Source of the DNA: Caenorhabditis elegans
Lineage: Eukaryota > Nematoda > Chromadorea > Rhabditida > Rhabditidae
Length of the DNA: 64,000 bases
Direction: 5' to 3'
Assembly: GCF_000002985.6 (NCBI RefSeq)
Contig: NC_003280.10
Coordinates: 2,790,001 to 2,854,000, forward strand
The notes below the pieces were generated by a model, which was not told the origin of the DNA, made no database searches, and saw nothing but the letters and a program-made list of their open reading frames with translations. The translations under genes and the position numbers were made by a program. This document shows, one piece after another, positions 33,757 through 55,088 of this stretch (its first letter is position 1; each line of letters begins with the position of its first letter).

Positions 33757-34258
33757 TTAATATTGGGGTTGTTCATTTTTGCACTTGTCAGTGACACATT
33801 TGTGGACACTGTAAATTCGGAAAAGACCCGGCAACTGTTTATTCTAAAAAATTTAAAGTTGAACCTTCAAAATAAAAACAGACGTACCTCATCGAGCAAG
33901 AGGTATACGTAATAACCTCTCTCATATTGACTTTCCAGGTAAACCAAGGCTTCAGCTGTGTTGCCTTTGATCGAAAACTTTTTAATTTCCGATTCCATGA
34001 TTGGGTATCTTTTCAGATTGTCGACATCTGGAAGTTTTATGAAAATTATCCGAGTATTTTCTCTCCTCTTTCCTATTGCTTACCGGCTCCCTTTCGGAAC
34101 AATTTGTAAAGACATTCATCTTTACGCTGTTCAAGGCAACCTATCGCCATATTGATGGTTCTTTTGGCAATCTTTTGCATTTTTTCTTCGGGAGATATCA
34201 ATGCGGAGGAGAAGCTTGCCAGAGCCAGGAGCAGAAGGATGGTAGTTGGAGATGTCAT
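33757..34258 (-). CDS. Cluster A small secreted protein, copy 1
   Basis: Exons 34258-34084, 34027-33888 and 33843-33757 encode about 133 residues; intron phases are 1 and 0. There is a signal peptide (SPTTILLLLALASFSSAL), then a helix-rich segment with two cysteines (AIGCLEQRKDECLYKLF) unique to this copy. The second exon starts DVDNLKRYP and ends in a YYVYLLLDE strand. The third has the family C-x4-C (HKCVTDKC). Role unknown; likely an extracellular protein. The gene is head-to-head with copy 2, sharing a 155 bp promoter. It is most like copy 3, which occupies the same position in the next pair. Confidence 0.8.
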
Positions 34259-34413
34259 CGTTGAATGATGAGGAAAAGGATGGTGAGCGATGCTTAATAG
34301 GATGGATGTAATTGGATTTGAGAGGGGGCGTGATGGGAACCGTCCTAATTCGATTTGCGCGATCGGAATAAAAGTTCAAAATTCTCAAATTTTCCATCAT
34401 TCTCCACCAAACG
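34259..34413. promoter_or_regulatory. Bidirectional promoter of cluster A copies 1 and 2
   Basis: The whole spacer between two start codons is 155 bp. It contains GTAATTGGATTTGAGAGGGG (34308-34327), closely matched in the second pair, and an AATAAAAG TATA-like box at 34367-34374, about 40 bp before the copy 2 ATG. Confidence 0.6.
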
Positions 34414-34911
34414 ATGAGAGTTATCCTTCTTCTTCTGGCTCTGACAGTCTTCTGTGCGGCCGATGCTCTGGATTGGACAGCCTTATTCGGTATTCAATCG
34501 AAGTTGATCCTTCAAGCCAAGAAAACCAATTCGCTTTCGACTCTCTATTCACTCATTCCACGAGGACAAGGTATGTTATCAGAATTAAAGAAGGACCTGC
34601 CGGAGATGAAAACATATCAATTTCCAGATATCGACCAGTATCTCGCAACTCACGATGTTCGAGACGTTCACGTCTTCACAGCAGGCAGTAGCACTTTGGG
34701 ATCTCGAGCTCTGGCTGAACTCACTGTATACAGAGGTTATCACCAAGATAGAGTCTACGCGTATCTCTGGCTCAGTCCGGTAGGTTAAAGCTGCTGTTGA
34801 GAAAGCATTAAGATGAGATTTCAGAGCAAGCAGAGCGCCACCGGATACACAATGTCCAAGGGATTCATCTGTGCCAACATTATGTGCGTTGGAGAGCAGC
34901 CATCAGTTTGA
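34414..34911 (+). CDS. Cluster A small secreted protein, copy 2
   Basis: Exons 34414-34570, 34628-34779 and 34825-34911 encode about 131 residues, phases 1 and 0. The signal peptide is RVILLLLALTVFCAADA. The mature start DWTALFGIQSKLILQAKK is shared with copies 4 and 5. Exon 2 runs from DIDQYLATHD to RVYAYLWLSP. Exon 3 has the strongly conserved GYTMSKGFIC and the C-x4-C pair. The compact helix-then-strand layout hints at a small alpha-beta fold, but no Pfam family was recognised. Confidence 0.85.
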
Positions 34912-35661
34912 TAACTCTTATGATTGAGATTATATAAATGAACATTGTGAAATTCCAGCAGAAAATGTTAGGGAAACGCACGGAGCTCGCCGAGCTCGGT
35001 GAGCAACATTCACTCGGGGGAATGATGCTTTAGTCATCCATTGCTTGAGCTTTCTTCGCCTACCAACGAAGGCCTGGAGGCTCGACAGAAGGCTGGAATA
35101 GCTCAGTGAACTAATTTCTGAGTTACTCCAAATCTTCAGGCCACAATTTCAAGGCCTTTGCACTGCCTGGGCTTACCCTACCTTAGCTGGAAGGTAGCGC
35201 AATTCACCACAGTCTCCGGCTCTGGCTCAGCTCCAGTTAAAGCCTAGTGGGATTATTCTTGCATTAGGCCATAGCGATTGAGGAACGCATGGCGATTGAA
35301 GAACGGATCATCCTTCAAACCTTATTGAGGAGTTCTGAAAATAGTGCGCATTTCAGTAAAAGCTGCCAGAAATGTTATAGGACTAATCCGACTACTAATT
35401 CCGTAGTTTCGTTCAGATGTCTGGCCCATTCATCCAAACCTATAAGGCCTACTCCTGTGAGAGGTAAGTTTCAGGTAAGTTTCTTGTTTGGACCACCCTG
35501 GAAGATGTACGAGAGCTCAATAGTTGTGGGCTCCGAAATTAGTCCCCACGATGTTAAGTTCTGGTGCATTTTCAAAAAATGGAGCTTTTCAAATTTCAAT
35601 CACAAAAATTTTAATTCCATTACTCAAATTTTATTCAATATTGGTTATGAACATTTTATCC
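34912..35661. other. Spacer between cluster A pairs
   Basis: Holds the SINE-like element and the 3' flanks of copies 2 and 3. The plus-strand ORF at 35289-35708 overlaps copy 3 exon 3 on the other strand and shows no domain, so it is not called. Confidence 0.5.
35075..35275 (+). repeat. Second tRNA-derived SINE family, copy 1
   Basis: GGAATAGCTCAGTGAAC resembles a tRNA A box. The 3' tail (GGAAGGTAGCGCAATTCACC, CTCCGGCTCTGGC, AGCCTAGTGGGATTATTC) matches, with divergence, the tail of the element at 51778. The B box is decayed. Confidence 0.55.
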
Positions 35662-36172
35662 TTATACTGATGGGAACTCTCCGGCGCAGAAGGTGCTGTG
35701 GCAGATGAATCCCTTTGACAACACGTATCCAGTTGGGCTTGATGAGCTCTGAAAATTAGATTTTTTATGTAAGGCACCCTCTAGCAGCTCTAGATACCGG
35801 AGTGAGCTTGAACATTGCGTAGAACTTTTGTCCATTGACAGTCTCGAAAGAGGCAAGAGGCATCATGTGCTCTCTGGGTTGCATTTGCTCGACGGTGACT
35901 TTTGTGATGGAATTTGGATGGTCTTGCAGGAATCTGTCAATGTCTGAAAAATTGATTCACAGTGAATTTTAGAGTTGGATCGTTTAAGCCAGCATACCAT
36001 ATCCTCTTGGAATCAACTCGTAAAGCATTCCATATTCATGAGAGCTTGAGGCCAGGAGCACCATATTGAGGTGGAGTTGAGCCAGCTTTGCAGAGTTTTC
36101 CTGCGACATGTAGGATCCGGAGGAGAAGCCCACCAGAGCCAGAAGAAGAAGGATGGTTGTCGAGGAGGTCAT
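35662..36172 (-). CDS. Cluster A small secreted protein, copy 3
   Basis: Exons 36172-35998, 35943-35798 and 35748-35662 encode about 135 residues, phases 1 and 0. The signal peptide SSTTILLLLALVGFSSG is close to that of copy 1. The first exon ends YGMLYELIPRGYG. The second holds DIDRFLQDHP and strands ending FYAMFKLTP. The third has SSPTGYVLSKGFIC with C-x4-C (CHSTFC). A TATAAA box (36210-36216, read on the minus strand) lies about 40 bp before the ATG. Head-to-head with copy 4. Confidence 0.85.
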
Positions 36173-36318
36173 CGTTGGATGATGAGGATGGTGGCGGTGT
36201 GTGGGATGATTTATAGGGAGACTGTAATTGAATTTAAGAGGGGGGGAACGTGTCTAATCCAATCAGGACTGTGAGTATATGCTTGGAATATTGCCCAGCT
36301 ATCCATCATTCACCAACA
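36173..36318. promoter_or_regulatory. Bidirectional promoter of cluster A copies 3 and 4
   Basis: A 146 bp spacer between start codons. GTAATTGAATTTAAGAGGGG at 36224-36243 matches the element in the first pair with only a few changes. A TATAAA for copy 3 lies at 36210-36216. Confidence 0.6.
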
Positions 36319-36923
36319 ATGAGAATCGTTGCTATTATCCTGGCACTCGTTGTCCTCTCCGTTGCTGAGAATCGGGACTGAAAAACCTTGTTTGATATCC
36401 AATCGAAATTGATCCTCGACGCCTATGAGAGCGGTGCACGTTCAACTCTTTGTGCACTTCTTCCTTGTCACGGTGGTAAGTGATTTCTGATAGGATAGCA
36501 TCTGTTGTGACTTGGGTTCCGTACCTACATCCAGGCGTTACAATCATTTCGCTGTTGTAACCGTCGGATCTGACTCTCCTCTCGGGTGTCAACATCATAG
36601 GTGAAGTTCTCACAGTACTGAAAAATTCAGCTTACAGATATCGAGCGCTATTTTGACGAAGAAAATCGTGTGGCATTGGTGGAAATTCTAGAAGCAGACG
36701 GACCACGGGCGATGGCTAGAATTTACCTGAAGGACACTCTCCTTCCAGAAATACGTTATGTATATCTCTGGCTTACACCAGTAGGTTAGATGTCATGAGA
36801 AAACCACTTAAAATTGAGTTTCAGAGCTACAAAAGCCCAACTGGATACACAATGTCCAAGGGATACATCTGCCATCACGATTTCTGCAAAGGAGACAGTC
36901 CACCAATATCTAATTTCCATTGA
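36319..36923 (+). pseudogene. Cluster A secreted-protein copy 4, nonsense-broken
   Basis: Exons 36319-36475, 36638-36780 and 36825-36923 keep all splice sites, phases and an open frame, except for one TGA at 36379-36381 (codon 21). The aligned codon in copies 2 and 5 is TGG (the Trp of DWTALF / EWKALF). Downstream the family marks are intact: LFDIQSKLIL, DIERYFD, YVYLWLTP, SPTGYTMSKGYIC. Truncation falls just after the signal peptide, so the product would be nothing but that peptide. It is a young null allele, a sequencing error or a fixed pseudogene; the sequence alone cannot tell. Confidence 0.75.
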
Positions 36924-37896
36924 TTGTGAACGATTGAATAAAACTTGAATATTTCAATTTTTTTATGTGATTTGGAGAAGTAAAAGGAATCTGACCAAAA
37001 GTGTAAATGAGAGTACCGAACAAGACCCTAGTTGTGCTCAGGAACATTACAGACGTTTAAATACAGGCTGATAAGCGGGACATGGTACTTGAGATTAAAA
37101 GGTTTCTCTGTGCTAATCAGGTATGACGCCAGGTGTTCTCTTCAGACTGAAGTCTTCGGACTGGATTAGCTCCCCAACCGAACCTGTATGGATGGCTTGG
37201 AGGATCACATTTTGGCTTAAATAGGTCGTATATAAGGTTATGGGCCGGATGATTCAACTGTTGTGAGTTCTGGAAACTTTTCCAGCTCACTTCCTCTTTT
37301 TTTTTCCTGGAAAGCAGGTTTTAAAGAAAACTTTTGAACTGACCGATTTTGAGGTGCAGCTAATCTTCGATCACTGTAGCAAAAAGAGGAAGAAATTCAG
37401 GTGGGCTGTAATTGAATTTGGTAGGTAAAACGAAAAAATCTGGGAACATCGATGTGCTGGGAACCAGGAAGTAGGTGGAAACCTGAAGATTTTTGACTGA
37501 TACGGCAGATCGGTCAGGTCTTACCCCCTACTAGCTTAAGATTCTTGATCCTTCCGAGGATCAGTGCACTGATTAGGATATCTTCTTCTACTGTGACTGG
37601 ACTTCACTTTGATCACTTGCACGTTGCGCTGGGAACCAGGAAGTAGATGAAAACCTGAAGATCTTTAAGCTGGTAGAACTGATCACTCAGATCCGACTCC
37701 CAGGTTTTCTGATATACTGGATCCTTTTGAGGATCAGTGTATTGATTAGAATACCTTCTTCCACTGGAATACCTAGTAGCTATCTGGTAGGCCCTTAAAG
37801 TTCAAAAATCAGATTCCCATGGAAGCCCACCTAATTCGATCAGCCTCCTTCCTATAAAGGATCACAATTTTCAACATTTTCATTCTCCATCCGACC
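36924..37896. other. Spacer before cluster A copy 5 with a tandem duplication
   Basis: Two tandem copies of about 185 bp (from about 37453 and about 37628) share GCTGGGAACCAGGAAGTAG, GAAAACCTGAAGAT and GGATCAGTG(C/T)A(C/T)TGATTAG. A TATAAAG at 37853-37859 serves copy 5. The fragment CTGTAATTGAATTTGGTAGG near 37409 resembles the paired promoters, perhaps a relic of a lost divergent partner. Confidence 0.55.
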
Positions 37897-38567
37897 ATGC
37901 GAATCATCCTACTCCTTCTAGCTCTCACCGCCTTCTCGGTTGCCTCCCCGGAGTGGAAAGCGTTGTTTGACATCCAATCAAAGCTGATCCTTAGCGCCTA
38001 CCGTAACCGGGCACCGGCAACTCTTTATTCGCTTATTCCAGTTGGACATGGTATGTAAGAGGGGTGCCTTGGACCTGTACCTGGAGAGCCTCGAGAGCCT
38101 GGAGCTGGTAGGGAAGGATCAGTGGCAGCATGAGTGAGGTCAGCGAGCTTTGTGGTCCGATTAACTGCCACGTTCTGGCTGCTGCTGCTGACAAGTTTGG
38201 TGAAAACTGATGCATGGTCTCCCGCTCTTCAGTAGATCGCAAGGAGAACTCCGGACCAGACCTCAAAATCCCAACTTCCAGACATCGACCGCTACCTCGG
38301 ACCGAACGATGTGAGACGAGTGCAAATTCTGAGCGCTCACGGTTCATCTCGATGGGCTCGCGCTCTGGCTGCAATCACAGAGTACGACGGCTTCGCTCCA
38401 AAGTTCAACTATGCACTCCTTGACCTTACTCAGGTTAGCTGAAGCTTATTGGATCTGAAAAAAGCTGAGAGTTTCAGAGCCCGACTAGCCCGACCGGATA
38501 CACAATGTCCAAGGGATTCATCTGCACACATATCATGTGCGAGGGAGAGTGGCCACCACCGCAATAA
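37897..38567 (+). CDS. Cluster A small secreted protein, copy 5
   Basis: Exons 37897-38050, 38282-38433 and 38478-38567 encode about 131 residues, phases 1 and 0. The signal peptide is RIILLLLALTAFSVAS. The mature part starts PEWKALFDIQSKLILSAYR. Exon 2 begins DIDRYLGPND; exon 3 has SPTSPTGYTMSKGFIC with C-x4-C (CTHIMC). It is most similar to copies 2 and 4. Its intron 1 (231 bp) is longer than in the other intact copies, and no divergent partner remains upstream. Confidence 0.85.
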
Positions 38568-38762
38568 CTATTTGAAAATGTTCGAAAAAATGTTTTTATT
38601 CAATTTGAATCAACAACAAGCAGCCAAAAAACATGATTATCGTTTTGTAAGAAGAAGAAGAAAAAGAAAAAAGTGACAAATAATTTAAAACTCAAAGTTA
38701 CACGTTTTCAGATTTTACAAATTTTCAAAAAAAAATCCAGAAATTAGAGAGAACAAGAAATT

Positions 38763-41220
38763 TCAGCCAATGATCCCGTCATTTTGGTCGGAGCCCTGCA
38801 CGACTTGCTGAAAAAAAAAACGATAAATTAACTGAAATTTTAAATTTAGTTAACTGAAATTTTGCTTACCTTCACCAAATTCTGATGCTCCGGGGGAACT
38901 TCTGTTTCAACTCTAGCTGGGACTTGTCGCTGACGGCTTGCGCCTGGAAAATGAGAGGTGACGTTATGAGGGTACTGTAGGGGTACTGTAGGCCATGGTG
39001 CATCGAGGAGGATACTGTACGGGTTACTGTAGGGGTACTGTAGGGGAGAACAATGGGGAGAACTATACCGTGAGCTTGAGACCTTTACTGCAAGGGTACT
39101 GTACAGTTGGAGCGCATTACTCTTAGGGTACTGTAGGGGATTACTGAAGGGGTACAGTATATTATGGTGCATCGAGGAGAATACTGTACGGGTCTTGAAG
39201 GGTTATGCCGGTTACTGTAAGTAGCACTGTAGAAGTACTGTACGGTTAACACTTCTACTGTAAGGGTACTGCCAGGGTACTGTAGATGTGTACTGTAAAG
39301 TTACTCCAGGGTTATGTTACAGTAAACATAGCTACTGTAGGAAGCCTTGTAGAAGTACTGTAGAGTTAAGACTATTACTGTACGAGGTACTGTAAGGTTA
39401 CTGTAGGATTATGGTACAATTGGGAGGGTTACTGTAGGACTACTGTAACTTTACATAGAGATTACTGTAAACGCTTACCACAAAATCCATCGGCAGCCAA
39501 CAGACGGTAGGTAAGCACCATATTCGAGCTGGCGAGGCAAAGAATGAGCACGCAGATCGTTGAAGCAATGTACCATGGGCTCATCGAGAACGATGCGAAC
39601 TGAAAATTAACTTGCTGAAACTAATTTTCCGTCAAGTAACCTACCACAAAGTAGATCATGTAAACATTTACAATCAGCCTGAACACCACGAGAGTGATGA
39701 TGTTCAGAATTACAGTAACGCGGAATGCGGTGAGCTTCTTGTCGAATCCATATCTAGAATTTAGTGGATAATTATTTTTCAAATTTTCTAGACTATAAAC
39801 TTACAAGTTCATCAAGCTTCTGATGTGCAAGAAGATCGAGTTGAGCTCCATGAGCAGTCCGGCGACGACGATGCCTAGCATGAGATCGTAGAACTGGAAA
39901 TAGTGGGGAATTTTTAAATGAAAATTCGGAAAGTAGAGGTTACCAGGCAAATAGTGAAGGCGGAGAGGACGACGACGTGATGGAAGAGGAGCTCCACGAT
40001 TCTGACGGATCGTTCATTGCAGATGAGGTCGACGAGGTCGTTGAGCAGGTAGCCAGTCATCATGAGCACCTGGAAATCGGGGAACTGTAGGGGTACTGTA
40101 GGGGTACTGTAGGGTTACTGTGGGGGTATTGTGGGGGTACTGTAGGGGTACTGCATAGTTTCGGTGCACTATGGTAGGCATTCTGCAGGCTCACTGTAGG
40201 GGTATAACATACTATTGTAGGGTATTGAAGGGGTAATGTAGAGGTACTGTAGGGTTACTGTGGGGGTACCGTAGATGTGCTGTAGGGGTACTGTAGAGGG
40301 CACTGTAAGGGTACTGTAGGGGTACTGTAGGACTACTGTAGGGGTAGTGTAGAGGTACTGTAGGGGTACTGTAGAGGGTACTGTAGGGGTACTGTAGAGG
40401 TACTGTAGAGGAACTGTAGGGGTACTGTAGGGTTACTGTAGGATTACTATAGGGGTGCTGTAGGGGGGTACTTACCAGGTTCCTGCCAACAATGCAATGG
40501 TACAAAATTGGGCTTTTGAAGAGCTCCGGGTCCACAATCAAAGCGTAGGCGGCCCAGAATCCTGAGATTGCCGAGTGCACCATTGACACACTTTCGTTGG
40601 AAATTCGCCATTTTTTGAGGGTAGACATTGTCTGGAATATTTGAAATTTGCTAGGATTAGTGTTTCAGGCTTAGGCTCGTAAGATTAGGTCCTCAGGCTT
40701 GTGTCCTTGGGCTAGGCCTAGGCTTGGGCTTAGGCTTAGGCCTAGGCTTGGGCTTAGGCTTAAGCTTAGGCTTGGGGCCTTAAGCTAAAGGTTAGGCTCA
40801 GGCTTAGGACCTTGGGCCTTTGGCTTCAGGCTTAGGTTTTATTTTTTCAGTTTAAGCCTAAACCTAGGGTCAGGCTTAGGTTTAGGCTTATGCTCTTAAT
40901 CTTAAGGCTAGGCCCATTCTTACCGCATTTCCGGGCTCCGACTCTGCCACCGGCACGGTTTCTTCGTTATCAACATGTGTTTGCTTGCAGAAGTTGTGAC
41001 AGTCTAACCTCCATTCTCCGAACAAGAATCGGTAGATCACAATGTGCAAAATTCGGAAAAAGACGACGGAGACGAGGACCTGAAAATTGAGAGAATTATG
41101 GATAATTTTGAAAAAAAAACCGACTTTTTTCTCTAAAAAATATTTTTTTCAAATTCAACTACTTACCAATGCAATTTCCCTGGCCCATTTCTCATCGAGA
41201 ATTCTTGTGGAGTCCCCCAT
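38763..41220 (-). CDS. TLC-domain multi-pass membrane protein
   Basis: Exons: 41220-41167, 41079-40924, 40631-40476, 40069-39944, 39893-39805, 39753-39645, 39599-39479, 38943-38870, 38807-38763. This gives about 309 residues. TLC proteins span the membrane several times. The TLCD1/2 branch is reported to limit long polyunsaturated acyl chains in phospholipids, while other branches include ceramide synthases. Marks seen: MVHSAISGFWAAYALI, GYLLNDLVDL, the family histidines in ELLFHHVVVLSAF, and further helices (GIVVAGLLMELNSIFLHIR; STICVLILCLASSNMV). The SVSMVHSAISG segment favours the TLCD1/2-type branch over ceramide synthases, but this is inference. Three introns carry TACTGTAGGGG arrays or telomere-like repeats. 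Confidence 0.85.
38960..39470. repeat. TACTGTAGGGG minisatellite, TLC-gene intron
   Basis: Degenerate units GGGTACTGTA or GGTTACTGTAG repeated over about 500 bp in the penultimate intron of the TLC-domain gene. The ORF at 38846-39172 is its translation. Confidence 0.85.
40084..40470. repeat. TACTGTAGGGG minisatellite, second TLC-gene intron
   Basis: A more regular array of GGGGTACTGTA units in the intron between exons 3 and 4. Same unit and orientation as the array at 38960-39470. Confidence 0.85.
40670..40910. repeat. Interstitial telomere-like (TTAGGC)n in TLC-gene intron 2
   Basis: Runs of GGCTTAGGCTTAGG with variants GGCCTAGGCTTGGGC. This is the nematode telomere unit on the + strand, the opposite strand to most other tracts in the window. 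Confidence 0.8.
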
Positions 41221-42854
41221 TGGCGCTTTTTTTCTGAAAAATATATAATTTTAAAATTAAAGACATCAAAATAAGCAAAAAAAAGGTGCTATATAACATA
41301 TATCACATGTTGTCAGAAAATCAAAAGGGCGTGAAAAAGTGCAAGAGATAAGAGACCAAGAATTTCGAAATCGCGGCGGCGGGGGGGGGGGTCACATGGG
41401 ATGTAGAAAGAAAATTGAAAGGATTTATGGAGGATTTTTGGAGAAAAATGTGTTGCAGAGTGCTATAGAGATGTAGAAAATTGAATAAAACGAGCAAAAA
41501 TTCAATGAAATTAAATTCGAGCCGGGTTGGAAAGGGCGTCTATAGCGTTTTTAATTTTGGAAAAATTCGCAAAAAAACGCACCGAGTTATTTTTTTCAAA
41601 AAGAAGAACAAAAAGTTCAAGCTAGAGTGTGGGAAATGACACAAAATTAACAAAAATGCTGAAATTTTTAATTAATTTCAACTAGAAATTGGCAAAATTG
41701 AGAACATTTTGATTTTGTAAAAAATTGGAATTTTCTCAAAAACCGTAAATGCTACAAAAAAGTTGTCAACTAACAAAATATTTGTCTTAAAATTTAGCGC
41801 ATTTTGTCAGTTGACAACTTTTTTGTAGATCTTCCCATTTTTGAGATACAGGGGTTTAAAAAAATTTGATTAGTAAAATTCAAGTTATCAAAAAAAAAAT
41901 TGATAAATGTCTCAAAAATCGTAAGTGCTACAAAAAAGTTATGTACTAACAAATTTTTTATCTCGAAATTTTATAAATTGTTAAAATGACATTTTTTTAG
42001 GGGCTCCACTTATTTTTGAGATACAGGGAATTTAAAAAGTTTGTGCAAAATTTGTGAAAATTATCAATTATTGGACAGATTTTTAAAGCTTTAAAAAAAA
42101 ATTTTTACCAACAAAAATTTATTATTAATTCCTCTAAAATTACTTTGAAAAATTATAAAAAATAAATAAAATGTTTTGCAAAAAAAGTAAGCAAACCACC
42201 GAAAAAACTGCCAACTACACACACAAATACACACCAAAAAAATGCCGTGAATCGACCGAGAATCTCTCTTTTCCCATCTCACCAATGAACAAATACACTT
42301 TTACGAATCGACAACACAGTGACGTCACCTGTTCGTTTTCTCTGCGCTCTCTCGCTCTCTAGATTTTGAGATATTTTTAGATGGTGGAAATGGGGCATTT
42401 TTGAAGGAAAAGTTGAGAAAAAATGAATTAAAAATAGTTATAGAATGGGATAGGACTGGAAGTTAAGAAGAAAAATTGCAAAAATAAATTGTGAAAAAAA
42501 TTTAAAAAATTGTTTTTTTGAAATTTGTCAAAATGTGTTTAGGCATATTTTATTAACTTTTTAAGGCAAAAATCAGGATTTTTTTTTTTTGAAATTTTAG
42601 CAAAAGGAAAAAGTAAAAAAATCCTATACACGACAAAAAATAAGGAATCGATAAAATAATTGTGGGCCTTGACAACCACCCCTCCCCACACAGGCAGGCA
42701 ATTTTCCCGCCCATCCCGCGTGCGCGTCACCTGTTTACGACACGTACACCCTTTTCCTCAATACAGGAGGGGGACTCTTTTAATAATTGCTCTTTTATAG
42801 GGTCTATTTTGTAGGCTACAAACTACAATAGGTGCGGGAAAATGAGCCTATTCA

Positions 42855-43950: not shown

Positions 43951-44599
43951 CTTTTGCCTTTTCATGAGTTTTCAGTTGAAAAAATGAATAGAAAACGTGC
44001 CATTTTTTATGTAAAAATAAGACGAGTTGAACAGGTAAAATCTTAAAACTGTCAATTAACATTTTGACTGACAAATTGGCAGTTTCAAGAGTTTTAGAAT
44101 TTTAATCGAAATTTGTTTTAAAATTTTAAAATTTTATCTAATTTCCTGCATATACATAGAGCTCCCTAACTAACTCGCAACATAATTATCAAGTTAATAA
44201 CAAAACACGATAAGAGTTACCTCTTTATCATTACCTTTTATCAGAAAATAAACATCAAAGTAACATGGCTAGTCAGCCAACTGCGAAGAACGGGGAAAAT
44301 TTGGCATGTTGGGAGAAAAATTCGAGAGATAGAGAGGGAGGTGGAAAAGAAAAAAACGGAAAAAATTTATTTTTCTGCTGTCTCATGTTTACCAAAAGTG
44401 TGTATGACGGGGGGAATAAAATGGAAAAGGAGGTTTGTTGACAACTTCTTCTGTTTTTTTTTCGAGCTTTTCCCCCACTCTGAAATTAAATTTTTCCTCG
44501 AGTAATTATTTTCAGTTCAGTCAGCTTCAGCTGCTGGGAAATATGGAGCTTGTAAATAGCAAACAAGTGCTGGAAAATGTATAGAAAAAATCAAGAAAC

Positions 44600-44890: not shown

Positions 44891-45050
44891 CGTATTTATA
44901 TAAGCGTGAAATTTACAACACTTTTTGCTCAAAAAATGAAAAATTTAATTTACAGGCTTCATTCTTATATAAACTCAATTATTTTTCATTACATGTACAA
45001 AATAAAAATTAAGGGTTCCAGAAAGCAATGAGAAAATTCTGAAAACAAAT

Positions 45051-46837
45051 TCAATCCCAGACAAGAAATTTGAATGCATTAGAAGTGATACAGATTGATG
45101 CTATTTTTCCGTCGCCAGATCTTTTAATATCCATCCACGTGGAACAATCATAGACTTTGTTGAAGTTTTCTGGGAAAAATCTGAAATAAAAAAACTTAAA
45201 CTTTGACAACTTGCATTTTGGCAGGCTTTGGGATTGTCAAAAAATTTGGCAATAAATCAGTAATTAAAATTCATAAATATCTTTAAAAAAAAAAATAAAT
45301 TGATGCACCTTGTCTTGCTCAAAACTCAGCCCCAGCCGCTCATAAAAACTGCCGGAGCTAGCTGCAAGTGAGAGAATCTAGGTCGATGCACCATGTCTTG
45401 CTCAACTCCGTGAGCACGTATCTCAGCTGACTTCAGCTCTATCAGAAAATGTTCAACTAACCAAATATTGGTCGTTTAATTCTTAACAATTTTGTAGTTG
45501 GCAACTTAGTGACAACTTAAACATAAACACAGATATTAGCTTGCCAAGTTAAGTGAGGACATGATGCATCAACCTGAAAGGATTTTGAAGCAATAAGGCT
45601 GAAACTCACGTCGACACAAAATTAAACTCTTTCGGTCTCTCTGCAGGATCCCAATCGCTGACGTCAATATCTTCATACACAATATCCGGATTCAAAGGAT
45701 TCATCCCCTCAGAAACCTTTATTTCAAATATTTTCCGATCGCACTCCGAGTTTTGCCAAGTGTTCAAAAATGAAATGATATCTTCATTTTTTATATTGGC
45801 ATCGGTCATCCATAAATGAGTTCCTTGAAACTTGGAGAGCACAATTGGAGCATGCTCTAGGGAATAAGTGAACCAAAAGTATTTCATTCGAAATATAGCT
45901 GAATCCTCTTGAAAATTATCGAGAACTTTCATTCCTAATGTAAGCTTTTCAATGCTTGTTTTTTTAGATAAAAAGTTGTCAATGGTGCTTGCATTGAGGC
46001 TTTCAGATTTTATAGTCGCTAAATAGCTCTCTTTCATATTCTTAATGTCAGGAGTACAAGTGAGATCGTCCACATTTGTAGTGAGTTCATACTTGTTGTA
46101 TGGTGTGGGTCGATATAAGGAAGTTATGCAAAGATGAATTGCTTCGTGAAATTGTTTCACTGGTCCGAGAAAGGTAAGGAAAACTTTTTTCTTGTTGTCA
46201 AATGTATTGGTGACTGGTGAAACACTGAAAAAAGTTCTGGAAGTTACAACGTCTTGCAATGCTTTTAAAATTAAAAACTCACCAAAACGGAATACGAGAA
46301 AAATTCGCGTTGATCAGCCGACTGGAACCCCCTCAAAAATCAAAAAAACCGGAAAATCCTAAGCCTAAATAGCGTCAGTAGCGAGCTGACGCTTACCACT
46401 GACGCCAAGCCCACACATAAACATAAGCCTAAGCCTAAGCCTAAGCCAAACGCTTCTGCCGGCTGTTATATGTAAGTATACGACTTTTACAATTGTTTTA
46501 AAAGAAAGAAAACCCACCAAAACGGAATCTTCAACTCATCCACTTCCACTGTGAAAGGACGCCCACGCTTCAGCAAATCTTCCTCAGATTTGGCCTTCTT
46601 CAAATAAATTCGTCCCATAAAATTGGAATTGTGATTTGTCAATTCAAACCAGTGATCATGATCTTCGGAAGTTCTGAAGCATATTTGCAAGATGGATAAG
46701 GCATCATTTTTGGATTTTGTAGCTATGATTTTTGACTTTTCAGAAGCAAACATGAATATTAGAGCGTCAAGATCGCAAAACTCCTGGCAGATTTGTTTTT
46801 GGACAAGATGTGGGAAAAGTGGAAAATGAAATGGCAT
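45051..46837 (-). CDS. F-box protein with FBA_2-type domain
   Basis: Exons 46837-46518, 46224-45610 and 45180-45051 encode about 354 residues. F-box proteins are substrate receptors of SCF ubiquitin ligases; nematodes have large, fast-evolving families. The F-box is N-terminal (MPFHFPLFPHLVQKQICQEF, then DLDALIFMFASEKSK). The rest resembles the nematode F-box-associated type 2 domain, including HLWMTDANIKNEDIISFLNT and the closing DIKRSGDGKIASICI ... FKFLVWD. The acceptor at 46224 was chosen because the one 12 nt upstream would create a stop at the junction. Intron 1 carries a telomere-like tract and a copy of the exon 1 donor region. Confidence 0.82.
46277..46530. repeat. Telomere-like insertion flanked by a duplicated exon-intron boundary
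   Basis: The sequence CACCAAAACGGAAT occurs at about 46281-46294 and again at about 46515-46528, where it spans the real exon 1 donor. Between them lie GCCTAAGCCTAAGCCTAAGCC (46427-46447) and other short telomere-like runs. Confidence 0.6.
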
Positions 46838-48415
46838 CACCAAAAAATTTCTGAAAATAAAATTAAAGGGGAACAAATGAAGGTGCCACTAGGATCAAAT
46901 AATGCATATAATTTTATTCCAGTGGGAGAAAAATTGGATGAATCGATCCGAAAGAACGTAAGAGACAAATGAAGAATAGACGGTGGTAGTACTGTGTAAT
47001 GGGGAAGACAAGATATTGCACTGAAGAGGTCATCCCACGAGACAACAGCAAATGAGCTCATCTCAATCAATAATTACCAAAAAATAGGGTTGTGCAAAAA
47101 GTGTTACAATGAGTTTCAATATATAAAATTCAATTGCTCACGCTCTCATAAAAGTGTAACAACGGTGCTGCGTTATTAGGTAAACTCAGCTCTTATTTTT
47201 CTAAACTTCGGTAAAACATTTTCGAACATTTTTAGAACAGTTTTGTTTTCAATCTGCTAAATGGTCACATTTCAGTGTATTCGAGCAAGCGTTAAACCGC
47301 GTTTTCGTACAAAAAATCCAGTTTTTCAGCAAAATGTGTTTGCAAAGTGCCGAAGTGCCGAATCGACACTAAGTACCGAGTTTTTCAGATTCGATCTATG
47401 AACACGAGGAAACAGTATCTGACTGCAAGAGGGGCAAAAATTTAAACAAAGAAGGTAGTTTTCTAATTCAAAGGGTTCCTGTGCCGCTAAATTGTTTGCA
47501 AGCATTTTTACAATTTGCAATCTTCCAAATGGCATTTGTTTCTTTTTAAAGGTGGAGTAGCGCCAGTGGGGATTTTGTCTAAATGCACTTATAATGATCC
47601 AAAACAACCGAATATCATAATAAAACACTACAAAAAACAAATTTTTCTTAATTTCCGGTCAAAGTTTCGGCAGACTGCCAAAATTTTGAGAAATACGAGC
47701 TTTTGAGGAAATTTAAAAAAATTTCGCATGTTTCGACCCTTACAATGTTTTAATATAAATAATTTAAATTAAATTTCAAATATAATTTTCAAACGTTTTA
47801 TCACGATATTTGAATATTTTGGGACCAGAGGAGTGGTTTTTAACCACTGCCGCTACTCCACCTTTAATAGTCTAAAGGTGAGTTGAAATAAATAGTCAAA
47901 ACTTGTAGTTGACTAAAATTCAAGTGAAAAGTGAAAAAGTCTACCTGATAATGATGTGAAAAGTGGAATTCGTGAACACCGACATAATTTTCGAATAATG
48001 AATAATGATACATACATCTTCTCTCAATAATATCCTGCGAAATATGCTTTGAAAAAATGTTCATGATACAGGAAGATCATTGATTTGAAAACAATTAGAA
48101 ATTCGAGATGGCCAGGGAACATCATACAATCATAGATTTCAGTGTTTTCAACGTTTTCTCGCACAATTCTCAACTAGACCTACATTGATAATATTTGATC
48201 TACTATCATTATGAAATAATCGGCGCCTAATTTAGTTTCTCTCTTAACCACCGGTGGAAAAAAACGAGCAAAATGTCTTTTTATGGTTTAACTGGGTGAC
48301 TTTTGTTTGTTTCTATTTTTTTTTTAAACTATTTTATTTATAACTGTCATTTTAAGAAGGATTGCCAAGATGGGCAATCATTTGAATGATCAAATTATTG
48401 AGTGAAAGTACTTAT
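46838..48415. other. Intergenic region containing a MITE
   Basis: Apart from the TTAA-flanked element at 47.55-47.87 kb, nothing recognisable. The minus ORFs at 46837-47070, 47326-47640 and 47864-48064 have no domain or splice support. Confidence 0.5.
47548..47866. mobile_element. MITE with terminal inverted repeats and TTAA flanks
   Basis: The left end AAAGGTGGAGTAGCG and the right end CGCTACTCCACCTTT are perfect inverted repeats, each preceded or followed by TTAA-type flanking sequence. About 320 bp, with no transposase ORF, so it is non-autonomous. TTAA targets fit piggyBac-like or palindromic TTAA elements of Caenorhabditis. Confidence 0.75.
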
Positions 48416-48548
48416 TTTTCCAAACTTATTTCTTTTAGGTGGCCGATTCGACTGACTCTAGCCAATCAATGGTCGCCAATGCAGGTATTCCCTCTCCTCA
48501 GACGGATCAGCAAAGCCAGGCAGCATCACCATCAGCTGTGGCATCGGT
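48411..48548 (+). repeat. Duplicated exon upstream of the hypothetical gene
   Basis: CCAAACTTATTTCTTTTAG followed by TGGCCGATTCGACTGACTC is repeated at 48420 and 48580. The upstream copy has GTG where the downstream copy has ATG. It then diverges into a Gln/Ser-rich open frame ending at a GTATGA donor (48546). It could be an alternative internal exon. Confidence 0.55.
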
Positions 48549-48598
48549 ATGAACTATTTCTCTCAAATTTATTCCATTTCCAAACTTATTTCTTTTAG

Positions 48599-48941
48599 AT
48601 GGCCGATTCGACTGACTCTAGCCAATCAATGGTCGCGGATGGTGGTCTCCTCTCTCCTTCGGATGCTTTTGGAATTTTTTTTGCTGTAGTAATTGCCGAA
48701 ATTATTGAAGCAAGAAAAAACGCCAGAATTCGCGAGCAGATGGTGGTTTGTTAATTTTTTCACTATATTCAGTTCAAAAATGTATAAATAATCTCAAGTT
48801 GAAGAAAAAAAACTGAGGTTATGGCTTGAAGCTACTCAAAGAGCACAGATTGAAACGGCCAAATTTCATCATGAGATTTCTGAGAATTCCAAAATGTTTA
48901 CGCACATATCTTTGACTAACTCGGGGGTTACATATCTTTGA
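48599..48941 (+). CDS. Small hypothetical protein with tandemly duplicated first exon
   Basis: Exons 48599-48749 and 48799-48941 encode about 97 residues. ATG follows TTTCTTTTAG directly, fitting trans-splicing. The product starts MADSTDSSQSMVADGG, then a hydrophobic stretch (FGIFFAVVIAEIIEA) and a charged helix (RKNARIREQ; EEKKLRLWLEATQRAQIE), so it may be a tail- or signal-anchored coiled coil. About 160 bp upstream the same exon start is duplicated (48430-48480) but begins GTG. Not recognised; the donor TTT|GTTAAT is weak, so the exon junction is uncertain. Confidence 0.45.
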
Positions 48942-49488
48942 TTAATTTAAATCCTTGGTAAAAATTAATAACAACCAACAAGGTGTACTTATTAAACATA
49001 AATTTGCAACTAAAAATGTGATAGAAATACATGTTATAAGTTATCTTTTAGTAAAATGCTTTAAAGTTGGCGTACAAGTTTTTGTTCGAAAAAAAGTATC
49101 GGAAGTTACAGTTGTTCAAAGTGGAGCCTAGCTAGTTGGCATCACATCAAAAACCCGCCCACGCAAGTTATTCGATTTGACTGGTATAATTCGATTAGCA
49201 CCCTGTGAACGTATAGTTCAGTTCTATTGTTTACTATCCCTCTATTATTACTATCGCATTTCCCATCTGGCCTCCCTCTAGTGTTCTACCCTTGATTATA
49301 TTCATTCTATACATCAGCTGGCGAGTGAGAGGTGACCTATCTCCTCTCTCTCCATCCGGCCTATTTAATCAATAAATACATGTATTCAAACACTAGTTTA
49401 ACAATCATAAACAGATAATGTGGTACCATTATCTTCCGTTTATAACCCCCTTCATAAGCCTTGAAGTTTCCTTATTGGCAACTTCTCT
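48942..49488. other. Intergenic region upstream of cluster B copy 1
   Basis: No gene seen. A TTTATAA box at about 49438-49444 lies roughly 45 bp before the copy 1 ATG, followed by CCTTCATAAGC, which also precedes copies 2 and 4. Confidence 0.5.
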
Positions 49489-50069
49489 ATGATTTTCCGC
49501 CCGCTTCTGCTCATATTCCTAGCTGTCAACTCCGATGCTCAACTTCTTCCTCCGGTCAAGAATATACTCCAAAACCACCTTGACATCTTCCAGAAAGCCG
49601 TTGACGCAGGAGATAAGGCGACGATGAGCAAAATGATACCGTTGAATCACAGTAAGAATACTTTGTCAGCAACTAATTTCTAATTCATTCTCAGTTTCCG
49701 ATGAAACACTAGATAAATTCATCAAGGCTCACAAGTCGATGAAGATGACTGCAAAAAGCGCGACGTTCATCGGCACTGGTAATACCCAGTCTGGTATCTC
49801 TGGAGTAGTGGAGTACGCAAGAGGAGGCCGTACTATTCTGCTTGAAGTAGTTGTTGAGAAGGTTCAGCTGAAACTCAGATCTCTATACTTAAGTTCCGAA
49901 TTTTCAGAGCCCTTCTAGTCCATCTGCCTACAAGTTTGCGAGTATCAGAACACCACCGGTCCCTTCCCAACGACGCAGTTTCCCGACTTGTATGCTGGGA
50001 TTGGTCGCGTGCTACCTCCATCTCATTGATGTTTTGCCAGGCAGTGCCGAGGAAATTCTTGTAAGATAA
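49489..50069 (+). CDS. Cluster B small secreted protein, copy 1
   Basis: Exons 49489-49651, 49695-49861 and 49908-50069 encode about 163 residues, phases 1 and 0. The signal peptide is IFRPLLLIFLAVNSDAQ. Exon 1 then gives an amphipathic helix (NILQNHLDIFQKAVDAGDK). Exon 2 starts DETLDKFIKAHKSMKMTAKS and ends in strands (ILLEVVVEK). Exon 3 starts SPSSPSAYKFASIR and extends into a hydrophobic C terminus (CMLGLVACYLHLIDVLP) ending EEILVR. Length and layout suggest an NTF2-like small fold, but that is only a guess. It is the only plus-strand copy in cluster B. Confidence 0.82.
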
Positions 50070-51051
50070 CTTTATTGAATTTTTTGGCCCGGATACATAA
50101 ATCAGTTTTATTTCATTTTGTTGTTTTTTGGAACTCAGTCAAGGCATGCAACATCTCCAGAGTTGAAGCAGCTGCAGAAGGGATATGGTGGTAAATGCAC
50201 CAGCATCATTTTTTCCAGGTGCACATGGTGCAGCCGACATCTCCACATTTTTAGCACCCGTCGCATCCAGCTGGCTAGGTGGAAATAAAGCAGCCGACGC
50301 CTACTGGTTGAATACAGGACGACCTACTTTTCCAATAAGCACACGGTGAATCATATTGCCTAAGATGGTGCTGAATGCTAACTTCAAAATCGGAGCACCC
50401 GATATTCCACGTATTATAGTTGACTTCAGACGAATAAATGAAGAGTTTGAAACATTGTAGTTTGAAGTTAACACTAACATGGCTGCAGAAAATATTTCAA
50501 AAATCCGAGGGGGTTCTATAGAAGTTGCAAGGTCGTTTTTAAGACTTTTTAACGTAGTCCCTGTGGTTTCTCAAAATTTTCAATAAAAACTTTGCCCGCT
50601 TCCAAATAACCATATTTTCGCATTACGTTGCACACACATCAAGCTACTTGTTTCCGAAGTTGCCGAACCAAAAAAAAAGCACACCCGAACTATGTTGCTT
50701 CCTCTTTGCTATTTAGGTACGGCTCTTGCGGGCCAGCCTAAATTATCTATTCGGGTTTTAATTTAATTTTTCATTATCAAAGTCAATAAACAATACCAGC
50801 ACTGTAGGTTGGTTGCTTGGATTCTCAAGCTGGAAGTTTTTTTTCAGCTAATAGTAAGGCCCATCGCCCTGTATCTACCCTAAAAATGTCAGCTGCTAGG
50901 CTAGCTATACTCCACTGGTAGATGAAGACTGAGGAGACGGCTGTTGAAACTTTGAATACATTCTTTAATTGATCTGCATACATCCAAGTTTCCAACGAGA
51001 ACAAAAAAAAACAATAAAGCAAATTCATCCGAGCCAAAAGTACAAATATAG
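50070..51051. other. Spacer between cluster B copies 1 and 2
   Basis: Holds unclassified sequence and a segment (about 50800-50895: GATTCTCAAGCTGGAA, GCCCATCGCC, ACCCTAAAAATGTCAGCTGC) that recurs at about 53540-53630, showing segmental duplication within the cluster. No intact gene. Confidence 0.5.
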
Positions 51052-51629
51052 TTATCCTTTAAGGACGTTTTCGGCAGTTTGTGCCAAAGCAACAATTAAA
51101 TCATACGGGCACATTATCAGGAGAGTGTAAAAACAATCAGGGATTTCACGACGTTGAGAAGGGATTGATTGTTTGCTGATACTCACAAACTTGTAGGCAG
51201 ATGGACTAGAGGAACTCTGAAATTTTGATACTTGAGTTAAAGAGATCCGAGAGTTTCAGGTGAACCTTCTCCAAAACCACGTCGAGCAGAAGAGTAGCCT
51301 TTCCTATGGCGTAGTCTACCTTTCCGGTGATTCCAGAACTTGTGGCCTGTGCGCTTTTTGCTGTCATCTTGAACGACTTGCGAGTCTTGATGAACTCATC
51401 TAGCTTTTCCTCGGAAATTCCTAAAGTTATAAGATACATATGTAGTTGCTGGTCATGAAATATTACTTTGATTCACCGGCATCATCTCGCGCAGAGCCTT
51501 CTTGTCTCCGGTGTCAACGGCTTTCTGGAAGGTGTCAAGGTGGTTTTGTAGATCCTTCATGTCCGGTGGTAGGGGTTCACCATTGGAGTTGGCAATGAGG
51601 AATATGAGAAGCAGCGGGCAGAAGAGCAT
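51052..51629 (-). CDS. Cluster B small secreted protein, copy 2
   Basis: Exons 51629-51467, 51420-51266 and 51216-51052 encode about 160 residues, phases 1 and 0, with introns of 46-49 bp. The signal peptide is LFCPLLLIFLIANSNG. The helix is DLQNHLDTFQKAVDTGDKKA. Exon 2 has EEKLDEFIKTRKSFKMTAKS and ends LLLDVVLEK. Exon 3 starts SSSSPSAYKFVSIS and ends QTAENVLKG. Exon 2 lacks the four-residue GNTQ-type insert of copies 1 and 3. Upstream, TTGAATTATACCAGTGTCAAATT is conserved before copy 3. Confidence 0.82.
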
Positions 51630-51679
51630 GGTGAAGCTGTAATGGAAGAATAAGAAAACTCGGATGCTTATGAAGGAGG

Positions 51680-51735
51680 TGCTGATTGAATTATACCAGT
51701 GTCAAATTGAATAAGGATCGTAGGTTTACGATGTG
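51680..51735 (-). promoter_or_regulatory. Conserved upstream block of cluster B copies
   Basis: GATTGAATTATACCAGTGTC, then AAATTGAATAAGG and GGTTTACGATG, recur before copy 3 (53240-53290) and, less well, before copy 4 (55137-55192). The block includes a TATAAT-like box on the coding strand 62 bp from the ATG. Confidence 0.5.
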
Positions 51736-52607
51736 GTTCCCAGAGGAAGGAGCAGCGTGGCATTGAAGATCCAGGGGCAGAATAGCTCAGTCGGTAGTGG
51801 TGGCCGCTAGCAATCTGGAGGTCACGAGTTCAAGTCCGGCCTAGGTTCACCCAACGTCTATTGGGAAGTGGAGCAATCCACGACTGGATTATCGGCCACC
51901 GTCCCCGGCTAGGACGTGGCTTAAATTACAGCCCAGTGGGATCACCACCAGCCAGTGTACCTGACTCCCAGATCCGCAGTGCGTAGCGCTTGAAGAAAGT
52001 ATCGTACTTTAATCCTTTTTAACTTAATCCAGGTGTTTGAAAGTTGTTTCTGTTCAAGTATTAGGAAGCCGAGCAGGATCTTGTTGACCACTACATTGCT
52101 TAACAACCGTTTTTAGCTATTCAGAACTCGACGGAGGGCTATATCCACCCTGCAGATGTCGGATGCGAAAACCCTAGGGATGACAGCTACATAGCATCAT
52201 CTGAAGCAGTGTCGTTTGCCCCATGTCTGTTTCCTGCAGGTGGTGGCTGATTGACTTCTGGGGATGTCGTGAGATCTATATCCACGTGTAAGATATCGAA
52301 CTTTTAAACTCTGAAGGTGTCGTCAATTTTCATTTCAGCCGAGGTCCTTAACCCTGTATCTACCCTAGCTGCCTATACTCTGAAAACGAAAGATATTTTG
52401 ACTTTTCAATATTCTCCGAAACGGTGGAACTTTGGCGTCATCAGTCGTCCTTGTCCTAGGTGAGATCCATAGATCCATAGATGTGAATCTACCCTCAGTT
52501 GTTCAAGCTCTGAAAACTGATTGGTTACTAAAGGAAACATCAAGACATCCAAAAAGCAAAAGTAAAACTGATTCATGTATCTTTGTCGAAAATATGTGTA
52601 ACAAAAA
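51736..52607. other. Spacer between cluster B copies 2 and 3
   Basis: Beyond the SINE-like element it holds unclassified sequence, including fragments (AACCCTGTATCTACCCTAGC near 52350) shared with the other cluster B spacers. No gene supported. Confidence 0.5.
51778..51995 (+). repeat. Second tRNA-derived SINE family, copy 2
   Basis: AATAGCTCAGTCGGTAGTGG (A box) and ACGAGTTCAAGTCCGGCC (B box) sit at tRNA-like spacing. A 3' tail of about 150 bp follows (GGAAGTGGAGCAATCCACGA, GTCCCCGGCTAGGACGTGG, AGCCCAGTGGGATCACC) that also occurs in the element at 35.1 kb. This copy is the better preserved. Confidence 0.7.
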
Positions 52608-53188
52608 TTATTTTCCAAAGACATCCTCAACAGATGGTGGCATAACATCAACAAGCCAGAGGTAGCACCAGAGGAATCCCACAAGACAAACATGGAAATT
52701 ACGTTGGGATGGGACTGATACTGGCCTGACACTTGTGAACATGTAAGAAGATAGACTGGAGCGATTCTGAAATATAGTAACTTCAGTTAAAGAGATCTGA
52801 GGCTTTGATCTGAACCTTCTCAATAACCATTTCAAGCAGAATAGTGGCGCCTCCTCTCGCGTACTCCACCACTCCGGAGATGCCAGACTGGCTATTACCA
52901 GTGCCGCTGTACTTTGCACTTTTTGCCGTCAACTTCATCGACTTGTGAGCCTTGATGAAGTCATCTAGTTCTTGATCGGAATCTGAAATTAAATTGAAAG
53001 ATAATTGATGACCAACTGTTCTTACTATGCTTCACTGGCATCATCACTCTCAGCCACTTCTTGTTTCCGGCGTCAACAAATTGTTGGAAGACGTCGAGGT
53101 GGTGTTGGAGCATATATCTGGCCGAACCAAACCGTTGAGCATCGGAGTTGACGATGAGAAATATGAAAAACAGCGGGCGGAATAGCAT
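52608..53188 (-). CDS. Cluster B small secreted protein, copy 3
   Basis: Exons 53188-53026, 52982-52816 and 52766-52608 encode about 162 residues, phases 1 and 0. The signal peptide is LFRPLFFIFLIVNSDAQ. The helix is YMLQHHLDVFQQFVDAGNKK. Exon 2 has QELDDFIKAHKSMKLTAKS and the insert GTGNSQSGISGVVEYARGG shared with copy 1. Exon 3 starts NRSSLSSYMFTSVR and holds a hydrophobic stretch (CLVGFLWCYLWLVDVMP). That the C-terminal extension stays open in four diverged copies supports it being coding. Confidence 0.82.
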
Positions 53189-54397
53189 GGTAAAGCTGTA
53201 TTGGAAGAATGAAAAATTCGAACAGATATGTAGAAGGTGCTAATTGAATTATGCCGGTGTCAAATCGAATCACGAGGGCGGGTTTACGATGTAGTTCCCA
53301 GAGATTTTCAACAGAGATGGGAGCACTACGGAAGCCAAGCAGGGTGTTGGCCCCCCCCCCCCCCCCCCCAGATGTCACATGTCAGAGGTTCCTTTATGAT
53401 GGCAAATTTTTTCTGACATCTGGAAATGCAGATCACTCTTTTTACACCAGGAGGCCCAAGTTCAAGCCGATCAATTATTTCAACTTATTCGTGGACTTAG
53501 TCACTTGGAAAGAACACGCTTACCAGAATTGTAGGATGGTTGCTCGGATTCTCAAGCTGGAATTTTTTTCTCACAATCAGCTAACTGGCCCATCGCCATG
53601 TATTTACCCTAAAAGTGTCAGCTGCAAGTGATGTGGAAATATAGCTTCACTCAACAGGCAGATATGCTTCATATTCACCTGGAGGTGATGTTGAACCTTA
53701 CTAGGGAGCCCCGTAAACTTATGGTGGCCGATTTGCTTGAAACTTATGCCATTCAAAAGCTGATATTGTGAGATGTAAGAATATAATTTCCATTTTTGCC
53801 CAATACATCTGAAAACTCAGAACATTTCATTTGAGTCCCGCGTAAGGCAAATTTAGGTTGACTTTGGCTAGCTGTATCTCTCCAGTAATGTAAGATAGCA
53901 AAAAGTTTTCAACTAACAAATTGTTGAGCGTGTTCTGATAAATAATTGTTTAGTTTTAACTTTTGCTATATCTTTTATACCAGTGTGGGATTACACTTGA
54001 CAAAGTGACAACTTCAAAGGGTTATAATAGGACAACATTGACAGATAGAGCAAAATTTTAAATTGAAAATCTGTTAATCAGAATACGCTCAACAATTTGT
54101 TAGTTGACAACTTTTTCTATCATTGATTACTGGAGAGATACAGCTAGCCAAAGTCAACGTAAATTTGGCTTACGCGGGACTCAAATCAAATTTTCTAAAT
54201 TCACAGATGTATTGGGCAAAAATGAAAATCATATTCTTACAGCTGACAATGTCAGCTTTTAAATGGCATACAATTCAAGCAAATCGGCCACCATAAATTG
54301 ACGGGGCTCCCTAGTTATTTTGTCTGACATCCAAGTTCACAGAGACAATAAAAACAACAATAAAGATGATTTATCTGAATGAAAATTACAAATATAT
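53189..54397. other. Spacer between cluster B copies 3 and 4
   Basis: Contains a run of 19 C at 53351-53369, a segment duplicated from about 50.8 kb, and the large palindromic element described separately. The plus ORF at 53251-53631 crosses the C run and the duplicated segment and is not supported. Confidence 0.55.
53698..54316. mobile_element. Large palindromic (foldback) element
   Basis: The ends CTAGGGAGCCCCGT and ACGGGGCTCCCTAG are inverted repeats. The arms stay complementary for about 250 bp (for example GTTGACTTTGGCTAGCTGTA versus TACAGCTAGCCAAAGTCAAC) around a roughly 110 bp centre. No ORF, so it is a non-autonomous foldback element. Confidence 0.85.
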
Positions 54398-55088
54398 TTA
54401 TCCTTTAAGAACTTTTTCCGAAGCCCTTTTTACAAGTTTAGCAATTTGTTGGTACCAAAAGAATAGTCCAAGAGGTATATTAGGGAAATTTTGTCGTTGA
54501 GAAGGTTCCGCTTGTGTTCTGACACTAACGAGCTTGTAAGAAGATAGACTTGAACGGTTCTGAAATTTTGAAGTTTGAGTTAAAGAGATCTGAGAGTTTC
54601 AGCTAAACCTTTTCCACAACCATTTCAACCAGAATAGCAGCGCTTCCACTCGCATACTCCACCACTCCAAAGATGCCAGTGCTGATGAATTTCGCGCTTT
54701 TTGCCGTTATCTTCATCGACTTGTGAGACTCGATGAAGTCATCTAGTTCTTTATCGTAATCGGAAAATAAATTAAAAGATAGTATATAACGAAAATTTTT
54801 TAAGTGCCAGAAGCTTCCAGTTGAATCAAAAAAATTGAATTTTCAGGCATATATTTAACAGTAGTTTTTTAGTTGTACTAAAACCAATTATTTATTGGGA
54901 TATTTATTCAATTTTCATAACTTTGAAAATTCATATTTCTCTCAAAACTAACTTTTTTCAGAAAGTTTCTTCGGGGACTTGTTTCAAATTTTGAGCTCTT
55001 TTTTAATTGCCTAGTTGTTGACCGGAGGAAGGAGTTGAGCATTGGAGTTGACAATCAGGAATATGAGAAGAAGCGACCGGAAAAGCAT
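54398..55088 (-). pseudogene. Cluster B copy 4, broken in exon 1
   Basis: Exon 3 (54559-54398) is intact, from NRSSLSSYKLVSVR to SEKVLKG. Exon 2 (about 54760-54609) is open but lost its acceptor: copies 1 and 3 have TTCAG or TTTCAG where this has TTTTCCG, and a few codons of the GTGN insert are missing. Exon 1 survives only as the signal peptide (LFRSLLLIFLIVNSNAQ, LLPPV) at 55088-55014. It then hits TAG and unrelated AT-rich sequence of about 240 bp in place of the helix-coding part. A deletion or insertion destroyed the gene; the promoter block upstream is still recognisable. Confidence 0.75.

Follow-up and report, generated by a model that had tools for sequence, protein, structure and literature searches.

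Two clusters of small secreted-protein genes on Caenorhabditis elegans chromosome II form one divergent family with a likely link to the seminal-fluid protein SFP-1

The window analyzed here is a 64,000-nucleotide stretch of Caenorhabditis elegans chromosome II (positions 2790001–2854000), in which nine genes or relics for small proteins of secreted appearance were rebuilt by reading and translating the DNA. Five form cluster A, arranged as two head-to-head pairs (A1/A2 and A3/A4) plus A5, and four form cluster B (B1–B4). An earlier note on this DNA had described the same nine, and the rebuilding confirmed both their character and their coordinates (Table 1). The products have a signal-like start and are about 130–160 amino acids (aa) long, as in proteins of the type of SFP-1, a seminal-fluid protein considered below; signal peptides were called by eye from the hydrophobic start, without a signal-peptide program. 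Eight of the nine genes (A1–A5 and B1–B3) have three exons separated by GT..AG introns in phases 1 and then 0, a layout that the note had given to all nine; the B4 relic lacks most of exon 1. Exon 2 starts with DIDx(Y/F)L in three of the five A genes (A4 has DIERYF and A1 DVDNLK) and with LDxF in all four B genes, and exon 3 starts with Sxx-S-(P/A)-(T/S)-(G/A)-Y in six of the nine (A2–A5, B1 and B2), the exceptions being NRSSLSSY in B3 and B4 and LPGLFRIY in A1. The start motifs proposed earlier thus describe most members of the family, and not A1 and A4 at exon 2 or A1, B3 and B4 at exon 3. Of the two marks proposed for cluster A, C-x4-C is present in all five genes, and GYTMSKG holds at three sites of the cluster, which are the only genome-wide occurrences of its DNA pattern, with A3 reading GYVLSKG.

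Two copies are broken. A4 is interrupted solely by one in-frame TGA in exon 1, and the rest translates. B4 retains its signal-peptide start and exons 2 and 3, with a TAG after LLPPVNN ending exon 1; the remainder of that exon was not found. Simple counting gave ratios of nonsynonymous to synonymous divergence (dN/dS) of 0.26 to 0.73 in the 12 of 13 pairs for which they were computable, with dS above 1 in every computed A pair, and across whole genes none of this hinted at positive selection.

Clusters A and B are homologous, as the sequence comparisons support, and belong to one family. Standard profile–profile alignment of A against B with hhalign gave a low probability (7.4%, or 0.9% without the signal peptide), and column shuffles and decoys were used for this reason. 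The A–B alignment score, local or global, was reached by 3 of 200 column shuffles, and the exon-with-exon total by 0 of 200 and, in a larger run, 0 of 500. The signal came from exons 1 and 3, while exon 2 carried none (117 of 500 shuffles). Column shuffles ignore the helix/strand rhythm, for which the decoys, triplets taken at random from the window's other proteins (1,696 residues), control in part; segments for both were cut at known exon ends, and the A and B exon ends were aligned by eye. Out of 300 decoys on the B profile, none reached the score of A5 or A3, and 3, 5 and 15 reached those of A1, A2 and A4; on the A profile, the counts were 0 for B1, 0 for B2 and 10 for B3. An A–B alignment made without intron information also placed both introns at matching columns. 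Convergence of unrelated A and B proteins on a signal peptide, an exon plan and short motifs would fit the low hhalign probability, but is highly improbable given the permutations, the decoys drawn from real proteins, the co-aligned introns and the promoter box described below. The common ancestry proposed in the note is supported by these comparisons. Protein searches of the worm's own genome with A5, B1, A1 and A3 found matches only inside their own clusters.

The note inferred duplication followed by a split. The family probably extends beyond this locus, as SFP-1 on chromosome III and a further cluster at II:3.46–3.47 Mb share both the gene plan and the promoter box. To locate sfp-1, a peptidase-M16 gene on chromosome III, which we take to be ucr-1 on clone F56D2, served as the landmark. 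The gene at III:5,582,411 (minus strand) has three exons in phases 1 and 0 and a spliced product of 133 aa, and is probably SFP-1, judging from length, place, signal-like start and layout rather than from a database record. When the helix 1–2 turns are lined up by eye, its first intron falls within ~2 residues of the A/B position. All eight readable window genes have three exons in phases 1 then 0, the first intron following helix 2 and the second preceding the last strand, and SFP-1, L042 and C3 are alike in this. The latter two belong to the cluster at II:3.459–3.472 Mb, which holds five genes (stretches L042, L055 and L050): L042, with a secreted look, phases 1 and 0 and a box at II:3,460,208 (minus strand) 62 nucleotides (nt) before its ATG, and C1–C4, in a 9.9 kb stretch adjoining L042 (L055) plus L050. 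Both introns are present in C3, in phases 1 and 0, whereas C1 and C2 lack the second one and C4 has no intron; the first intron is in phase 1 in four of the five genes, and the second in phase 0 in two. The cluster is like A and B in its signal-like starts, an SGD-like helix turn and boxes at −61 to −63, and unlike them in the last strand of C1 and C2, GNWT(L/M)KSM. Several kilobases of minisatellite with many open frames (L055:3104–7889) lie inside it.

The promoter box comprises 14 bases, in a stretch first noticed upstream of the window genes and sfp-1. Among 16 starts scored, a 14/14 box stands at −61 to −72 in A2, A5, B2, B3, SFP-1, L042, C1, C4 and a short peptide gene in L050, and a 13/14 box precedes A4, B4, C2 and C3; A1 and A3 have 12/14 boxes farther up. 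Six of the nine window genes (A2, A4, A5, B2, B3 and B4) therefore have it in the usual place. The boxes of C1–C4, none of which was used for pattern design, each lie at −61 to −63, and that of sfp-1 lies at −61 with TATAAA 22 nt on. Where the box is in its usual place, a TATA-like stretch starts 19–24 nt after the box's TAAT; in B3 the script chose another hexamer at 17, and CATATC at 21 was recognized by eye. Random 100-nt slices (n = 6,000) contained a 14/14 box in 0.12% and a 13/14 box in 0.3%, against 320 nt scanned per gene. The window as a whole has 10 sites of at least 13/14, nine of them inside the two clusters or bordering on them. In B1, an insert separates the box from the TATA-like stretch, and its region (49150–49500) contains no inverted repeats of at least 14 nt.

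Table 1. Genes, promoter boxes and landmarks, in positions of the window (1 = II:2790001)
Feature	Position	Strand	Details
A1, 130 aa	33757..34258	-	exons 34258-34084, 34027-33888, 33834-33757; phases 1,0
A2, 131 aa	34414..34911	+	exons 34414-34570, 34628-34779, 34825-34911; phases 1,0
A3, 135 aa	35662..36172	-	exons 36172-35998, 35943-35798, 35748-35662; phases 1,0
A4, broken copy	36319..36923	+	TGA in exon 1; exons 36319-36475, 36638-36780, 36825-36923
A5, 131 aa	37897..38567	+	exons 37897-38050, 38282-38433, 38478-38567; phases 1,0
B1, 163 aa	49489..50069	+	probably Y110A2AL.4; exons 49489-49651, 49695-49861, 49908-50069; phases 1,0
B2, 160 aa	51052..51629	-	exons 51629-51467, 51420-51266, 51216-51052; phases 1,0
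B3, 162 aa	52608..53188	-	exons 53188-53026, 52982-52816, 52766-52608; phases 1,0
B4, relic	54398..55088	-	exon 1 stop-shortened; exons 2 (to 54609) and 3 (from 54559) recognisable
Box of A2	34345..34358	+	CTAATTCGATTTGC; AATAAA 21 nt on
Box of A4	36254..36267	+	13/14
Box of A5	37831..37844	+	CTAATTCGATCAGC; TATAAA 21 nt on
Box of B1	49186..49199	+	ATAATTCGATTAGC; 14/14, displaced to -302
Box of B2	51681..51694	-	ATAATTCAATCAGC
Box of B3	53239..53252	-	ATAATTCAATTAGC
Box of B4 relic	55140..55153	-	13/14
Insert between B1 box and TATA-like stretch	49203..49444	+	~242 bp, by blastn; flanks contiguous in B2 (51711-51649)
Left landmark, part of fucosyltransferase gene	29796..30296	-	probably K12H6.3; PF00852, E 2.4e-43

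A profile of the SFP-1 group (SFP-1, L042 and C1–C4) was compared with both clusters. The score of B against it was reached by 1 of 500 shuffles, with the signal in exons 1 and 2, whereas 57 of 500 reached that of A directly. Decoys (of 300) reached the scores on B of C1 (3), C2 (5), C3 (5), C4 (6), SFP-1 (16) and L042 (25), and those on A of C3 (3), L042 (24), SFP-1 (50), C2 (98), C4 (121) and C1 (125). Pairwise, the shuffles (of 200) reaching the score numbered 0 for SFP-1/L042, 7 for B/L042, 22 for B/SFP-1, 31 for A/L042 and 96 for A/SFP-1. B matches the group in sequence and A alone does not clearly do so, so A would join it through B only. SFP-1 resembles A in length (133 aa, against 130–135), signal peptide and three-exon layout with phases 1 and 0, although there is no significant direct sequence match and C-x4-C is extra in A; its profile match is better with B, which has an additional hydrophobic C-terminal tail. 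Own-genome protein searches with SFP-1 and L042 each returned the query alone, so such searches miss relatives that are found by promoter and place.

The fold was modelled for A2 and for exon 2 of B. For folding, the alignment was trimmed at the ends of exon 1 and at the beginning of exon 2 of A1, and exon 3 of A1 was dropped. In the AlphaFold model of A2, helices and strands follow one another as in the NTF2-like superfamily (NTF2, ketosteroid isomerase, limonene-epoxide hydrolase, DUF4440), with weak structural matches that leave room for families outside the comparison. The NTF2-like fold is cone-shaped, with three helices packed against a curved sheet of at least four strands. Exon 1 would supply the signal peptide and helices 1–2, exon 2 helix 3 and three strands, and exon 3 the last strand. 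A Pfam scan found no family over the cut-off, only chance hits, in seven of the nine window genes (A4 and B4 were left out) or in L042, nor in SFP-1 itself. Searching PDB sequences with the profiles of the two clusters yielded SDA1 at E 0.05 and two others at E 2 and 7, none of them credible. Two worm DUF4440 proteins were tried as a yardstick and proved a poor one, their local alignment scores being reached by 6 (B), 16 (SFP-1) and 43 (A) of 100 shuffles. Cystatins have one helix, four strands and a QxVxG loop. A cystatin-like fold, which would make these proteins secreted protease inhibitors, is very doubtful, as two helices precede helix 3 and the sheet in the A2 model, the arrangement of NTF2-like proteins, and the loop was not seen by eye in the family, no dedicated motif search having been made.

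Clone C16C8 presumably lies at II:3.46 Mb, and C16C8.10 may be a gene of the cluster there. Cluster A is flanked on its left by the probable K12H6.3 and on its right by a TLC-domain gene (PF03798). K12H6.3 is described as a core alpha-1,3-fucosyltransferase (PMC10796627), and K12H6.6 is apparently named in a paper on TLC-domain proteins (PMC6279351). With numbers running along the clone, K12H6.4 and K12H6.5 would be A genes (this order is inferred), and cluster A probably includes K12H6.5, given its neighbours K12H6.3 and the probable K12H6.6. The SFP-1 paper (PMC12669617) lists four seminal-vesicle secreted proteins of ~15 kDa, F56D2.8 (SFP-1), K12H6.5, C16C8.10 and F40G9.15. If the placements of K12H6.5 and C16C8.10 hold, two of these four belong to the family. 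According to this paper, SFP-1 has 133 aa, a signal peptide, three helices and four strands, is the only NTF2-like-domain protein among the four screened, and is made in the male seminal vesicle, transferred at mating and absorbed into the intestine of the mate, activating SKN-1 there (PMC12669617). K12H6.5 made in the gut did not shorten life (PMC12669617), so the mode of action of SFP-1 need not hold for A. In cluster B, the published start of Y110A2AL.4 (II:2,839,303) is 186 bases from the B1 start codon (II:2839489). Expression of Y110A2AL.4 has been reported in larvae, as has a difference between N2 and DR1350. For Y110A2AL.3, a gene left unmapped in this analysis, a 5.5-fold rise has been reported following 12 h of H2S.

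We consider it likely that A and B are seminal-fluid NTF2-like proteins of the male, in one family with SFP-1. For tissue, transfer and action taken together, this is quite probable for A and about an even matter for B; A is the likelier of the two. Seminal-vesicle expression is predicted from the promoter box and the probable K12H6.5 identity. The box with a TATA-like stretch ~20 nt on, as at sfp-1, probably drives most of these genes in the seminal vesicle of the male somatic gonad. Once secreted, the proteins would enter the seminal fluid and reach the hermaphrodite at mating, where they could act in the hermaphrodite itself or on sperm, the pocketed NTF2-like domain binding a ligand or partner. 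The note had instead suggested a role in the gut, cuticle or defence. On that account, A and B would be homologous, lineage-specific secreted proteins whose likeness to SFP-1 reflects a small fold found in many proteins and a box in wide use, and it would accommodate the null result of the direct A–SFP-1 comparison, the larval Y110A2AL.4 and H2S-responsive Y110A2AL.3 reports, and the box before cysteine-rich (Cys-rich) small secreted peptides (see below). It is nevertheless unlikely, since sfp-1 and its relatives share intron phases, intron places and box position with A and B, and an A gene is probably K12H6.5; the evidence would favour male seminal fluid. A search of the literature, with most subscription papers and supplements outside its reach, found no statement on a shared promoter box or on a relation of A, B or K12H6.5 to SFP-1 or the NTF2-like fold; a link to Y51H4A was also sought in the literature and none was found.

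The box is rare across the genome, where the pattern TAATTSRATYAGC N7-9 TATA occurs at five distinct sites, compared with one for the backward control: A5, sfp-1, L042 (II:3,460,208) and two without a recognisable gene. A wider pattern gave 12 distinct sites (control, 1), six of which precede small secreted-type genes (A5, B2, B3, sfp-1, L042 and the short L050 peptide) and six, by eye, do not; four of the six hits had served pattern design, which leaves an independent score of 2 of 8. With a third pattern there were 16 sites against 2 in the controls, namely A5, sfp-1 and 14 others, of which seven precede a small-secreted-type start, two are unclear (L065 and L067) and five do not. Five of those seven lie in a cluster of six at IV:16.62–16.63 Mb, with whole short Cys-containing peptides readable at three of the five, one at IV:13.867 Mb and one at X:6.209 Mb. 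At random places, 291 of 20,000 had an unspliced signal-like open reading frame at that distance, a figure not strictly comparable, as an intron interrupts the signal in several of the peptide genes. Box and TATAAA precede small secreted-type, often Cys-containing peptide genes at L059, L060, L062 and L063 (IV:16.623–16.634 Mb), L061 (IV:13.867 Mb) and L068 (X:6.209 Mb).

We tentatively propose, at somewhat below even likelihood, that the box and TATA-like stretch (CTAATTCGATTAGC, with a TATA box ~20 nt on) mark a male seminal-gland secretory regulon that includes clusters A and B, the II:3.46 Mb cluster, SFP-1 and Cys-rich peptide genes on IV and X, and that, in a selfing species, is now in decay (A4, B4 and the split B1 promoter). 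Our guess is that these broken copies and the split promoter are in keeping with relaxed selection where males are scarce, and, equally as a guess, that the B1 insert might bear on the N2/DR1350 difference of Y110A2AL.4. Should A, B and the II:3.46 Mb cluster be relatives of SFP-1, effects of mating on the hermaphrodite may stem from the family, and the promoter box would be a direct route to listing and testing male gland genes. The decay of copies would show the fate of male-transfer proteins once a species turns to selfing.

Further features were observed in the window. Patched/sterol-sensing exons at 58.2–59.8 kb were read as ptc-3 (Y110A2AL.8). Between B3 and B4, a nested long inverted repeat (53700–54315) has 204-nt arms at 89% identity and inner 74-nt arms at 84%, and a run of 19 C lies upstream of B3 (53351–53369). 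A further small-secreted-protein-like start (MLKTTWISLIFWIFLPKIAS...), without a box of at least 13/14, is present at 24487–24789 on the minus strand.

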